From assembly GCA_937951345.1 (NCBI GenBank), contig CALFCF010000019.1:1-41380 (forward strand): a stretch of DNA of 41,380 nt. The letters are read 5' to 3'. The translations under genes and the position numbers were made by a program. This document shows, one piece after another, positions 18,081 to 22,607 of the stretch. The first letter of the stretch is position 1, and every line of letters begins with the position of its first letter. The stretch comes from an uncultured Granulosicoccaceae bacterium (GTDB taxonomy: Bacteria; Pseudomonadota; Gammaproteobacteria; Granulosicoccales; Granulosicoccaceae). The notes under the pieces were generated by a model, which saw only the letters and a program-made list of their open reading frames with translations, made no database searches and was not told the origin of the DNA.

Positions 18081-18545
18081 ATGCCAGAAGCAGCAATAGA
18101 TAGTCAGTACGACTACGCCCCTGAATATCTTGCGGAGATTCTGCGCTCCGTCAAAACTATCGCCATGGTGGGTGCAAGTGCGGACAAAACCAAATTCAGT
18201 TACGGCGTATTACGTGTACTGCATGAAACCGGCTACGACATGATACCTATCAACCCCAATCCGGCAGTGACCGAAATTCGTGGCTTAAAAGTTTTTGCTT
18301 CTTTAGCTGAAGTTGATCGTCCTATTGATATGGTGCAAGTATTCCGTAGACCGGAACAGTTTTACGGTGTCGCTGAAGAGGCTATTGCAGTGGGCGCAAA
18401 AGTGTTGTGGGGGCAGATAGGTGTATTCGATGATCGTGCGGCCAAGCTTGCAGAAGATGCCGGACTAAAAGTGGTGATGGATCGCTGTCCTAAAATTGAA
18501 TTGTTTCGACCGTTTTGGAAACCGAGGTTGGATTTAAAAATATAG
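18081..18545 (+). CDS. CoA-binding domain protein (YccU-like)
   Basis: 154 residues, single Rossmann-type CoA-binding domain. It begins immediately after the ferredoxin stop. Key segments: IAMVGASADKTKFSYGV (about 28-44) for nucleotide binding, MIPINPNPAVTEIRGLKVF, VQVFRRPEQ and VLWGQIGVFDDRAAKLAEDAGLKVVMDRCPKIE. This is the pattern of the E. coli YccU family and the N-terminal CoA-binding domain of acyl-CoA synthetases (ADP-forming), here alone with no catalytic partner. Function in the family is poorly known. It is last in the SBP56 operon, so it could bind a CoA ester tied to the pathway. Confidence 0.9.
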   Translation: MPEAAIDSQYDYAPEYLAEILRSVKTIAMVGASADKTKFSYGVLRVLHETGYDMIPINPNPAVTEIRGLKVFASLAEVDRPIDMVQVFRRPEQFYGVAEEAIAVGAKVLWGQIGVFDDRAAKLAEDAGLKVVMDRCPKIELFRPFWKPRLDLKI

Positions 18546-18610: not shown

Positions 18611-18838
18611 ATGAACAACTATGTTCAGAAGATGAAATCAGCAAGTTTAATGTGTAACCCTTTTTTTTATCACCTTCTTATCCTGTCACTCATGCTTCAG
18701 GTGTCATTCATTAGTTTGTTGAATGCTGCCTCCAACGATCCGCTCTGGTCAGATTCAGAGGTATGGAACGATGTTTCAAATTATTCCACTGAAAAACAAA
18801 TAAATGGACACCACAAATATTGTGAATGTTCATCCTGA
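18611..18838 (+). pseudogene. Truncated exported protein cut by a mobile element
   Basis: Open frame of 75 residues; the natural start may be the second Met at 18632. The region FYHLLILSLMLQVSFISLLNA is a good signal peptide, followed by about 25 residues of mature-looking sequence (NDPLWSDSEVWNDVSNYSTEKQ). From about residue 66 the reading runs into the end of the RAYT-like element that starts at 18806, and the rest of the protein is not found on the far side. So this looks like the 5' stump of an exported protein, broken by insertion. It could instead be a short intact peptide gene whose last residues were replaced. Confidence 0.45.
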
Positions 18839-19032
18839 AAGCCTTCTAAGTTTCAAGTTAAAGACGAGCCGGTGTAGTTGGGTCGACTCATTGAAAAAGA
18901 CCGATGTGAACAGCAAGCAGCAGAGGTCTTTGTTGCGAAAACGGCTGAAACGTGAATTGCGGCCAGTCCATCCCCTTGCCACACCTCAGCGACAAATGTT
19001 TGAAGGATAGTTGTCAGGTGTAGCTGGGCGTA

Positions 19033-20022
19033 CTAGCAGATTTTGTGATCAGCAGCCTGCCAGATCCACCGGCGCTGCAAGGAATTGCAATAGCTCAGAA
19101 TTCGCTCAACCGATCCCAATGCCCGCTGCTGCCAGTTGATGCTGGGTTGGTGTGATTTCATCCATTGTTCCGGTGAGTAATTCAGTCGTGTGAAGATATC
19201 CGGGATATCGGCGTGTATGTAACCTCTTTTGTCGTTGCGAAGTTGTCGCCCGGTCCAGTCAAGCAGCGCCAGATAGTCATCAAAACTGATGGGTAAGTCG
19301 GATACAGACGTGAGCGTATGCACTTGTTCCTGAACAGCTTGCGTGCTGAAGGGCAGTAAGCCTATTGGTGATTCAGCATCGTCACCTTTGTGATGTATAC
19401 GCCGTTGAATAGAGGTGTGTTCAGATGCTTCAGGGGTCTTGGCAATGCCGGCTCTGACGGGGTTTAAATCAACATAAGCGAGTGTGCGTAACAAGGCATC
19501 GTCATCGAGAATCGCCTGCGAGGTGAAGCGGTGTTCCCAGAACCTGCCTTTGCAGCCGTCTTCGGTGTTGGATTTACGTGCAATGAACTGATTGACCAGG
19601 CCCATGAAGCGACTGAGATTGGCAAGTTCAGTGCGCCAGATGGGTAGCTTCTCACTGAGTAGTTGGGATTCCTCTTCATCAAGTGGTTCGTCATCACGGA
19701 GTCGCTTAATGAGCGGATTGGTGGGGTAGAGTTGTGCCCATCGATCAATCACAGCGTTGTCGTCGAGTGAGAGGGCCTGTTCACGATTGATCTTCAAAAC
19801 CACGTGGTAGTGGTTGCTCATGACGGCAAAGGCTGCCATGTCGATACAGAAGATTTGGACTAAAAACAATAACCTGTCTTCGATCCATTGTTTGCGGTGG
19901 GTGAAATCGCGCTCACTGAGCGTATCGTAGCCACAGATAAAGGCCCGGCGAACGCAGCGTGTGGTGACGTGATACCAGGGGGTTTGATCAAGACAGATTT
20001 GCTTGGAGCGTGCAGTAGTCAT
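19033..20022 (-). CDS. HUH (Y1/RAYT-like) transposase
   Basis: 329 residues. The HUH metal-binding motif is MSNHYHVVLK with His71 and His73. Other family marks are WYHVTTRCVRRAFICG near the N-terminus, GRFWEHRFTSQAILDDDALL and AYVDLNPVRAGI. This matches the large IS200-like transposase group common in marine gammaproteobacteria. In canonical RAYTs the nucleophile Tyr sits in a helix after the HUH motif; here the corresponding stretch LSRFMGLVNQFIARKSN has Phe or Ile there and no Tyr. The C-terminal 100 residues (after about 230) are an extension of unknown role. Start ATG 20022 is preceded by a GGAATAG-type site. The reading frame is intact and a deleted relative lies nearby. Confidence 0.85.
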   Translation of the reverse strand: MTTARSKQICLDQTPWYHVTTRCVRRAFICGYDTLSERDFTHRKQWIEDRLLFLVQIFCIDMAAFAVMSNHYHVVLKINREQALSLDDNAVIDRWAQLYPTNPLIKRLRDDEPLDEEESQLLSEKLPIWRTELANLSRFMGLVNQFIARKSNTEDGCKGRFWEHRFTSQAILDDDALLRTLAYVDLNPVRAGIAKTPEASEHTSIQRRIHHKGDDAESPIGLLPFSTQAVQEQVHTLTSVSDLPISFDDYLALLDWTGRQLRNDKRGYIHADIPDIFTRLNYSPEQWMKSHQPSINWQQRALGSVERILSYCNSLQRRWIWQAADHKIC

Positions 20023-20053
20023 GGCTATTCCTTTAGCGCGATGAGAATTACAG

Positions 20054-20084
20054 GTAGGACGATACCAGTCAGGTACTGGTTGTC
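20054..20084 (+). repeat. REP-like GTAG plus hairpin upstream of transposase
   Basis: GTAG (20054-20057) is followed directly by an imperfect hairpin: GAC (20058-20060) with GTC (20082-20084), A20062 with T20081, and ACCAGT (20064-20069) with ACTGGT (20075-20080), leaving single-base bulges at 20061 and 20063 and a 5-base loop. A conserved tetranucleotide 5' of a bulged hairpin is the layout of REP sequences recognised by RAYT proteins. It sits about 30 bp upstream of the transposase start. A second GTAG-type motif of related sequence (GGTGTAGTTGGG, GGTGTAGCTGGG) occurs near 18871, 19018 and 20879. Confidence 0.5.
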
Positions 20085-20227
20085 AATTTATATTTGTGGT
20101 GTCCTTGGTTGGTGACCATTTAACTTTGCCGTTTTGTAGTGTCCCCAGTATTGGTTGCCGATATAAAGAACAAGCATCAGAACAAACCAAATTTGTGGTG
20201 TCCTCGGGTGGGCTCTCGGGTGGGCTG

Positions 20228-20257
20228 TTGTGAATGTTCATCCTGAAAGCCTTCTAA
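20228..20257 (+). repeat. Fragment of the RAYT element left end
   Basis: These 30 bases (TTGTGAATGTTCATCCTGAA and onward) repeat bases 18819-18848 of the left end, lacking the terminal GGACACCACAAAT. This suggests an older copy was already here, or that the region formed by rearrangement between copies. Confidence 0.6.
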
Positions 20258-20282
20258 AATTCACATGTGGCTCCTTTTTTAC

Positions 20283-20356
20283 GCATAACGCCTGCCTTAA
20301 GCGGCAAGGCATTCGCGTAGCGAATTGAATGGTTCGTCTGCAAGCCCTTGCTAGGT
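20283..20356. repeat. attC-like site 1
   Basis: Imperfect inverted repeat with core-like ends GCATAAC (20283-20289) and GCTAGGT (20350-20356), each one mismatch from RYYYAAC and GTTRRRY. The inside begins CGCCTG, like site 2, and has a central hairpin ATTCGC/GCGAAT around GTA. It lies just past the 3' end of the zinc-ribbon gene, where a cassette's attC belongs. Confidence 0.5.
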
Positions 20357-20360
20357 GCAC

Positions 20361-20654
20361 CTACTTGTACGGTATATCCCACTCGTCCGTACCCATCATT
20401 ATCTTGAGGCCGTTTTCTCCCCATCTGGATTCAAGGTTTGAAACGAGAATTTCTGATTCGGTCTTGAATACAGGGCCCGGAAAACCATCAATCATGCCGA
20501 TTTCCAATTGCTTCTCAGTAACTACAAACAGCACAACTTTTTCACAGTAAGGACACTTAAAACTATTCCACATTCCCCGGCGCGCATTAATTGCGCCGGA
20601 GAACACTTCTTCCGGCTTTAGTGATTCGCTGCAATGTAAACACTCGATACTCAT
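20361..20654 (-). CDS. Small zinc-ribbon protein (gene cassette)
   Basis: 97 residues from ATG 20654; a GTG at 20660 would add two. Two CxxC pairs are seen, Cys5/Cys8 (ECLHCSES) and Cys34/Cys37 (FKCPYCEK), making a four-cysteine zinc ribbon. The rest (about 40-97) has no motif I know. The start codon lies only a few bases after the GTTAGGT core of attC-like site 2, and site 1 follows the stop: the compact layout of an integron gene cassette. Function is unknown. Cytoplasmic, no leader. Confidence 0.6.
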   Translation of the reverse strand: MSIECLHCSESLKPEEVFSGAINARRGMWNSFKCPYCEKVVLFVVTEKQLEIGMIDGFPGPVFKTESEILVSNLESRWGENGLKIMMGTDEWDIPYK

Positions 20655-20658
20655 GTGC

Positions 20659-20760
20659 ACCTAACGCCTGTCTCAACAGCATATTGAATAATTGGCAGGT
20701 TTTTGCGTAGCTACGTTCTGCTGAGCATTCAATATTGTCTGTTGCAGACTCTGCTTATAA
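20659..20760. repeat. attC-like site 2
   Basis: One end has a perfect core ACCTAAC (20659-20665; GTTAGGT on the minus strand). Arms GTCT-AACAG-ATATTGAAT (from 20670) and ATTCAATAT-CTGTTG-AGAC (to about 20750) pair into a long hairpin with a GCGTAGC-containing loop as in site 1. The far core is decayed (GCTTATAA at 20753-20760). Confidence 0.55.
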
Positions 20761-20813
20761 ATCATTTATTCTCCACCACCTCCTTCTCCATCACAATGAA
20801 TACACGAATACAC

Positions 20814-20953
20814 GGACACCACAAATATTGTGAATGTTCATTCTGAAAATCTTCTAAGTTTCAAGTTAAACGTGAGCCGGTGTAGTTGGATCGACTCATT
20901 GAAAAAGACAATATAAAGAACAAGCATCAGAACAAACCAAATTTGGGGTGTCC
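20814..20953. mobile_element. Internally deleted RAYT-element derivative (MITE-like)
   Basis: A 140-bp unit made of the first 96 bp and last 43 bp of the 18806-20203 element with nothing of the transposase. Its ends are GGACACCACAAAT (20814-20826) and ATTTGGGGTGTCC (20941-20953), inverted with one mismatch, and two TTGGGTGGGC repeats follow (20954-20974). It contains GTAG-TTGGATCGACTCA (20882-20897). It carries no gene and could be moved only by a transposase elsewhere. It lies where the attC of the 21028-21705 cassette is expected. Confidence 0.7.
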
Positions 20954-21027
20954 TTGGGTGGGCCTTGGGTGGGCCTCGAATCATCGCTGCCGGTCAGCTG
21001 ACATTTAGGCAAGTTGTGGTTCTAAAA

Positions 21028-21888: not shown

Positions 21889-21984
21889 ACATAACGCTAA
21901 GCACAGCGGCTGGTTGACGGCGACTGACCGGAGCGACAGCGCAGGGAGGGAGCGGTTAACTTGTCCGCATGCTTATTGTTAGAA
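21889..21984. repeat. attC-like site 3
   Basis: Cores ACATAAC (21889-21895) and GTTAGAA (21978-21984). The arms pair well: TAAC-gc-TAAGCA-ca-GCGG at 21892-21909 against CCGC-a-TGCTTA-tt-GTTA at 21965-21981. The middle is GC-rich and structured. This is the best attC candidate in the window, lying 21 bp past the toxin stop, as in cassettes read on the minus strand. Confidence 0.65.
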
Positions 21985-22005
21985 CGCGTCGCCTGGAATC
22001 AGACT

Positions 22006-22305
22006 CTAGTTCCGTGATTGCCATACACCCGGATGCTGCCTGACATGAAATATGGAAAGTACCTCAACCGTATTTTGACCTTTAATTCGATAAAATACTT
22101 GATAAGGAAATCCTTTAACTGATTGGCAGCGAATTTCCTTGTGCACACGAGCTGACTGTTCCGGAGATTCTGCAAGGGATTGAATCGCAGAGTCTATTGA
22201 TTCAACAAATCTCTGACCTAATCCTTGCTGCCGTTCTTCGTACCAATCTACACTCTGGTTGAATTCAATCTGAGCTTCTGGCCGTATCCTGACTTGGTGA
22301 GTCAC
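22006..22305 (-). CDS. RelE/ParE-family toxin
   Basis: 99 residues from GTG 22305, which overlaps the antitoxin stop by 4 bp; the longer reading from 22347 runs through the antitoxin gene and is unlikely. The ParE/RelE fold shows in VRIRPEAQIEFNQSVDWYEERQQGLGQRFVESID (about 5-38), then SARVHKEIRCQSVKGFPYQVFYRIKGQNTVEVLSIFHVRQHPGVW. The ...FPYQVFYRI...VEVLSIFHVRQHP ending is typical of ParE-like proteins. These toxins act on gyrase or on ribosome-bound mRNA; which one cannot be said. The pair sits in an integron-type cassette, a common home for such modules. Confidence 0.85.
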   Translation of the reverse strand: MTHQVRIRPEAQIEFNQSVDWYEERQQGLGQRFVESIDSAIQSLAESPEQSARVHKEIRCQSVKGFPYQVFYRIKGQNTVEVLSIFHVRQHPGVWQSRN

Positions 22306-22532
22306 TTGGAAATTCGACCTATTACCCTCTTTTTGACATCTTCCCAAGGCACTGAGGCTTCAGGAGTGGCGTCGGCAGCAGCCAAGCGCTTATCCAACTC
22401 TTCTTTCATTTCAGAGGAGAGACTTAGATCACCAGTTTCTTCTGAAACACTATCCCAAATTTCGCCCATTAGTTGGAGGCGTTCCTCGACATCGAGTTTA
22501 TCAATACCAAGTGATTTTGCGGATATTCCCAT
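22302..22532 (-). CDS. Antitoxin of the addiction-module component type (TIGR02574-like)
   Basis: 76 residues from ATG 22532, chosen because GGAGAAAG lies just upstream; the reading from 22550 lacks such a site. The sequence LDVEERLQLMGEIWDSVSEE (about 14-33) is the family signature, LxxEERLxLxxxIWDSL. It is followed by LSSEMKEELDKRLAAADATPEASVPWEDVKKRV, the toxin-wrapping part. It overlaps the toxin gene by 4 bp. It should bind and neutralise the toxin and probably represses its own operon. Confidence 0.85.
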   Translation of the reverse strand: MGISAKSLGIDKLDVEERLQLMGEIWDSVSEETGDLSLSSEMKEELDKRLAAADATPEASVPWEDVKKRVIGRISK

Positions 22533-22588
22533 AGTACTTTCTCCGGCCAAGTGTCTATTCTACCACTCCGACGAATGCATGCTCAGCG

Positions 22589-22607
22589 TTCTAACAGCCT
22601 GTTAGTG
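22589..22607. repeat. Short attC-like remnant (site 4)
   Basis: TTCTAAC (22589-22595) faces GTTAGTG (22601-22607) with CTAACA/TGTTAG pairing (22591-22596 with 22600-22605). It carries the same GTTAGAACG boundary (minus strand) as site 3 and lies just upstream of the antitoxin gene, so it marks the other edge of the cassette. The rest of a normal attC is missing. Confidence 0.4.

Follow-up and report, generated by a model that had tools for sequence, protein, structure and literature searches.

Transposons of the IS200/IS605 family, IS608 and ISDra2 among them, lack terminal inverted repeats (TIRs) and are marked by subterminal hairpins and by guide tetranucleotides. REPs are hairpins tagged by GTAG or GTGG that occur in high copy number. 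Among the TnpAY1 transposases, subclass 2.3 was described by Quentin et al. (2018, PMC6006769) as having a median length of 325 aa, the motifs NHYH, WE and YVDLNP and a long C-terminal extension; it is prevalent in Chromatiales and Alteromonadales and was reported to be without identifiable REP-like structures. Di Nocera et al. (2013, PMC3733652) gave RAYT-like genes with TIRs the name TIRYT/TIRtrons and described their TIRs also as dimers or clusters; these elements were discussed again by Quentin et al. (2018, PMC6006769). Described members belong to subclasses 2.1 (20/26), 2.2 and 2.5, and none to 2.3. We analysed a locus within a 41,380-nt stretch of DNA from an uncultured Granulosicoccaceae bacterium (contig CALFCF010000019.1; the whole stretch is called the window here), which is probably a TIR-bounded HUH-tyrosine transposon (TnpAY1, subclass 2.3-like) together with a non-autonomous, internally deleted derivative. 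The original prediction for this locus had regarded TIRs as unusual for IS200/RAYT-type elements, a view that the two papers above contradict for RAYT-like genes.

The 329-aa product of the transposase gene contains the motifs NHYH, FWE and YVDLNP and a long C-terminal extension. Residues H71, H73, Y183, N187 and P188 were invariant across 63 family members, and the catalytic residues are intact. Pfam gave no match for the window protein, Y1_Tnp was matched by 24 of the 63 family members, and NCBIfam returned a REP-transposase match below threshold. Searching the sequences of the PDB with a profile of the family gave nothing, so a fold search was needed. An AlphaFold model of the protein (pLDDT 85) had 4er8 (TnpA-REP) as its top PDB fold match (Foldseek E=2.6e-4; VIA-align Z=11.4 over 156 residues). 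Matches to Thg1-like structures (Z about 6) were well below 4er8 and were dropped as a shared arrangement. By its motifs and predicted fold, the window protein is a member of the TnpAY1 (IS200/RAYT HUH-Y1) superfamily. Judged by the published table and not by its HMMs, the length of 329 aa and the motifs NHYH, WE and YVDLNP assign it to subclass 2.3, and the occurrence in marine gammaproteobacteria with several copies per genome is a further likeness to that subclass. Among 93 relatives, with a median length of 332 aa, NHYH was present in 68 and YVDLNP in 82. Of the named relatives, the one nearest to the locus was in a Granulosicoccaceae MAG, the family of the host assembly itself, and phage records held no relatives. 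The HUH/Y1 catalytic core is shared with IS200/IS605 elements; unlike these, the locus has no TnpB gene beside the transposase, and the window protein is about twice as long. In a separate observation, a CRP-like palindrome, TGTGA-N6-TCACA, was found 76–89 bp before the transposase start in L036, L039, L040, L100, L101, L102 and L103. At a match of at least 9/10 it occurred in 8/102 loci compared with 5/1,020 random stretches, which suggests cAMP-CRP control in this one group of relatives.

The features of the locus are collected in Table 1. The repeat GGACACCACAAAT was exact at 18806–18818, at 20814–20826 and, inverted, at 20191–20203, and the outer ends read (A)GGACACC. The full element (18806–20203) and its shorter sibling had been expected to share inverted ends; three of their termini bear this out exactly, and the fourth, the right end of the sibling (20941–20953), has one mismatch to the terminal repeat. 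The inner copy, in which 20092–20104 is a further exact inverted copy of GGACACCACAAAT, pairs with the left end at 15/15 positions. It is placed 68–82 bp before the ATG, inside the range in which many relatives have their upstream terminus. Just outside the right end of the element is a remnant of the interior of its left end. The window repeat corresponds to the family consensus minus one C (GGACACC-ACAAAT). Single-strand folding compared with shuffled sequences revealed no significant end hairpin in the window, the left end folding no better than its shuffles (z=-1.07), and an Rfam search of the window gave no matches. The enzyme fold (4er8) and the embedding of the transposase gene among its own repeats are shared with RAYT/REP systems, and the short inverted end-pairs resemble REPINs in concept. 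However, the window ends are sequence motifs of about 10–15 bp without an obvious GTAG hairpin, and they were confined to this locus in the genome, whereas REPs and REPINs show a GTAG/GTGG hairpin and high copy number. A RAYT-like gene between TIRs, as in the TIRYT/TIRtrons, is present at the locus. The motif carried by the majority of TIRYT members, GGGGWSAS, overlaps GGGGACAC in the middle copy; the family motif defined below, RGACANNCAY, overlaps it but differs.

Table 1. Positions of the repeats, gene, sibling and junction duplications of the locus in the window
Feature	Position	Strand	Basis or remark
Left TIR, GGACACCACAAATAT	18806–18820	+	Side downstream of the transposase gene
Transposase gene, 329 aa, HUH/Y1, TnpAY1 subclass 2.3-like	19033–20022	-	NHYH 70–73, YVDLNP with Y183
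Inner terminal-repeat copy	20090–20104	-	Perfect inverse of 18806–18820
Degenerate middle copy, GGGGACACTACAAAA	20132–20146	-	Read in the sequence; overlaps the published TIRYT motif GGGGWSAS
Outer right TIR, ATTTGTGGTGTCC	20191–20203	-	Sequence comparison
Junction tandem duplication, TCGGGTGGGCTC / TCGGGTGGGCT, period 12	20204–20226	+	Adjoins the right end of the full element
Left-end interior remnant, 36 bp, without the first 14 bp	20228–20263	+	34/36 identical
Junction tandem duplication, GAATACAC x2	20798–20813	+	Left of the sibling
Transposase-less, internally deleted sibling, 140 bp	20814–20953	+	Alignment and folding
Junction tandem duplication, TTGGGTGGGCC x2, period 11	20954–20975	+	Right of the sibling

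The 140-bp unit had been said to equal the two ends of the full element joined by one base. Its relation to them is far beyond chance and the single joining base (A, at 20910) is real, but the match falls short of identity: 89/96 positions agree between 20814–20909 and 18806–18901 (93%), and 42/43 between 20911–20953 and 20161–20203 (98%). Relative to the full element 1,259 bp are missing, and a direct repeat, CCGAT, is present at the edges of the deletion (18901–18905 and 20158–20162). The two units point the same way and are 600 bp apart. They have about 23 bp of flank in common beyond the right end, whereas the left flanks are unrelated and homology begins at GGACACC. When the sibling was folded as single-stranded DNA its inverted ends paired (z=-2.9 for the minus strand and -2.0 for the plus strand), which is consistent with, though not proof of, recognition as a single-stranded hairpin.

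The surroundings of the sibling have features of their own. Putative attC-like repeats, TAACGCCTG..., at 20286–20360 and 20655–20762 bracket a 99-aa ORF (20361–20660), the second of them with a hairpin, and inverted GTTAGAACGC repeats at 21977–22000 and 22573–22596 bracket a ParE/antitoxin pair (22006–22550). The mini-element may sit in a small stretch resembling a cassette array. Another contig of the same genome (G000:C108:155-878; L301, L302) encodes a frame-broken integron-type integrase, seen as two TIGR02249 pieces of 139 and 134 bits.

The original prediction was to be abandoned if the ends did not recur outside this locus. At the DNA level they did not: the window ends were absent elsewhere in their own genome, and the 182-bp region of the sibling found no DNA match in 94 related genomes, only in its own. 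Taken literally this goes against the prediction, but in the form of a motif the ends are found again around homologous transposases. We surveyed 98 loci with homologous transposase genes (about 33–54% identity), and an unbiased search for inverted segments around the genes repeatedly returned GGACACCCAT, AGACACCCA, GGACAGGCAT and GGACAGCCA. The motif RGACANNCAY was found upstream in 74/98 loci, downstream in 66/98 and on both sides in 54/98, while 44 of the 98 had no recognizable motif on at least one side. Its density was 4.7 per kb upstream and 2.7 per kb downstream (background, 0.22 per kb per strand), and its orientation was predominantly inward (110 inward versus 12 outward upstream; 105 versus 6 downstream). 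Furthermore, the left and right end variants were identical in 27 of 54 pairs, compared with about 9 on shuffling and a maximum of 20 in 2,000 shuffles. Between copies in the same genome, similarity ended 0–12 bp outside the motif at most readable ends. Several motif copies on one side were seen at many loci, with three at the window locus. These data support the assignment of the inverted RGACANNCAY ends to the transposase family, in contrast to the report of no REP-like flanks for subclass 2.3 (PMC6006769), since such an end is present at most related loci. Among L067–L072, which come from Planctomycetes and others, the planctomycete relatives have GGACAGGCAT ends instead of GGACACCCAT; the end type thus seems to track the transposase lineage across phyla. 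A literature search for the end motifs recovered only unrelated primers.

We found that the element ends are often accompanied by tandem duplications at the junction with the flank. The TCGGGTGGGCTC/TCGGGTGGGCTG copies after 20203 and the two TTGGGTGGGCC copies after 20953 start directly at the end of TGTCC, and three of the four ends at the window locus carry a junction duplication. The trailing TGGGTGGGC repeats noticed originally are real after both 20203 and 20953, and are better read as flank duplications that straddle the junction, which are common at ends of this family. To quantify them, ends were scanned for flank adjoining the end that recurs within 45 bp, with random positions as control. 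Junction duplications were present at 43/143 family ends (30%) compared with 2.0% in the control, and the duplicated unit usually reaches 1–4 bases into the end of the element, or covers most of the TIR. The rate was about 31% at offsets -2 to 0, about 7% by +9 and 3–4% further in, a peak that local composition therefore does not explain. In a 2.9-Mb genome, G366, they occurred at 11 of 43 ends of its 22 copies, five of these copies being also in the 98-locus set. We found no description in the open-licence literature of junction duplications at an element/host boundary, or of tandem duplication at tyrosine transposases.

Many marine bacteria carry relatives with the same inverted ends, mini-copies and junction repeats. 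Copy number is low in most genomes. G366 holds 22 dispersed copies with 79–92% identity, common ends and a short T-rich outward consensus, and one further copy has been reduced to its ends with the loss of roughly 0.9 kb. This set of about 22 copies (G366:C1, loci L240–L263) would be well suited to experiments or to the resequencing of populations. Another genome, G391, has a unit of about 45 bp that consists of little beyond two ends, and TIR-only mini-copies were detected at 24 sites in 8/23 genomes and at none in the reversed control. On Pseudoalteromonas chromids an element lies just past the icd terminator in two strains and no element is there in CF6-2, HL-AS2 and THAF3; because of divergence, the boundary can be placed to within a few tens of bases and no closer. 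Elsewhere in Pseudoalteromonas sp. HL-AS2 (L276, 2690–4400) another family element lies between direct host repeats of about 120 bp, single in HL-AS1 (L282). A conventional target-site duplication was not detectable in 54 pairs tested, which is also a likeness to IS200/IS605. For the window locus no empty site was found, the syntenic contigs of two congeners aligning only up to the gene at 18081–18545. The sibling itself is short, ORF-less and shares both ends with the autonomous element, as MITEs do, and it is a single copy beside its parent when its own genome and the 94 relatives are considered. We therefore call it MITE-like and not a MITE, its own movement being suggested by analogy with the mini-copies in G366, G391 and other genomes, which provide it with parallels. 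Of the earlier description as a MITE-like derivative of a HUH element, the HUH gene, the inverted ends and the internal deletion stand; the sibling's own mobility is only putative, given its single copy, the lack of an empty site and the right flank shared with the full element, which a local duplication would explain.

From what is known of this enzyme family, the transposase would recognize both inverted ends, probably in single-stranded form, and would nick the DNA at the outer end of TGTC(C/T) or a few bases from it, so as to move whatever sits between two ends. Repair or re-joining at the nicked junction might then duplicate a few end bases together with 7–20 flank bases and leave the trailing repeats. 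The 140-bp unit would have lost about 1.26 kb, the deletion possibly having occurred at the CCGAT repeat, while keeping both ends, and could have been mobilized in trans by the adjoining intact transposase.

For the sibling, a serious though less probable alternative is that it never transposed: the element would have been duplicated locally, together with part of its right flank, and an internal deletion would then have left a dead remnant. This possibility has to be taken seriously because the right flank is shared over about 23 bp, which would be odd for precise transposition, and the left flanks are not. The proximity and common orientation of the two units, the lack of further copies in the genome and the 36-bp remnant between them fit it as well. 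It accounts poorly for the start of homology at GGACACC between unrelated left flanks, for the sibling's own GAATACAC duplication at the left junction, which is absent at the full element, and for the independent mini-copies in other genomes.

Two further explanations concern the motifs and the duplications. It is improbable, in our judgement, that the RGACA motifs are mainly iteron- or operator-like binding sites for a domesticated Y1 protein, the mini-copies being decoys or regulatory sites. That many loci have more than one motif copy on a side, that most genomes hold few copies and that the conserved C-terminal region has no assigned function would all suit such a role, but the motif is symmetrical on both sides of the gene, and the dispersed G366 copies and the empty sites show that the family is mobile. 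Slightly less improbable, but still unlikely, is that ordinary slippage during replication of the AT-rich intergenic DNA near the ends, unrelated to the transposase, produced the junction duplications. The units have the size of slippage products (7–20 bp) and the flanks are T-rich; against this, the rate peaks at the boundary and then falls, and the repeats overlap the end by 1–4 nt far more often than duplication of flank only would predict.

Returning to a mobile TIR-bounded element, TIRs on RAYT-like genes were already known, so the novelty lies in the ends for subclass 2.3 and in the junction signature. The accessible text of PMC3733652 makes no mention of a 140-bp end-only derivative, of co-variation between ends or of junction duplications. 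We propose, tentatively, that the TIR-bounded Y1 transposons of subclass 2.3 are a large group that has been overlooked, and that their cut-and-join reaction leaves behind a tandem duplication of 0–4 nt of the end plus 7–20 nt of flank (or of the entire TIR with flank), a signature undescribed for IS200/IS605 or REP systems. If this is true, the signature would imply that repair at the nicked junction is staggered or slipped, and junction duplication could be the way in which ends are multiplied to give arrays and end-only mini-elements. The duplications offer a sequence fossil of the reaction, and the mini-copies hint at how non-autonomous elements of the REPIN kind might begin as TIR elements. 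Subclass 2.3 had been described as spreading, yet without REP-like flanks; with recognizable, co-varying ends, this orphan group of transposases becomes a set of delimited mobile elements open to counting, annotation and biochemical tests.
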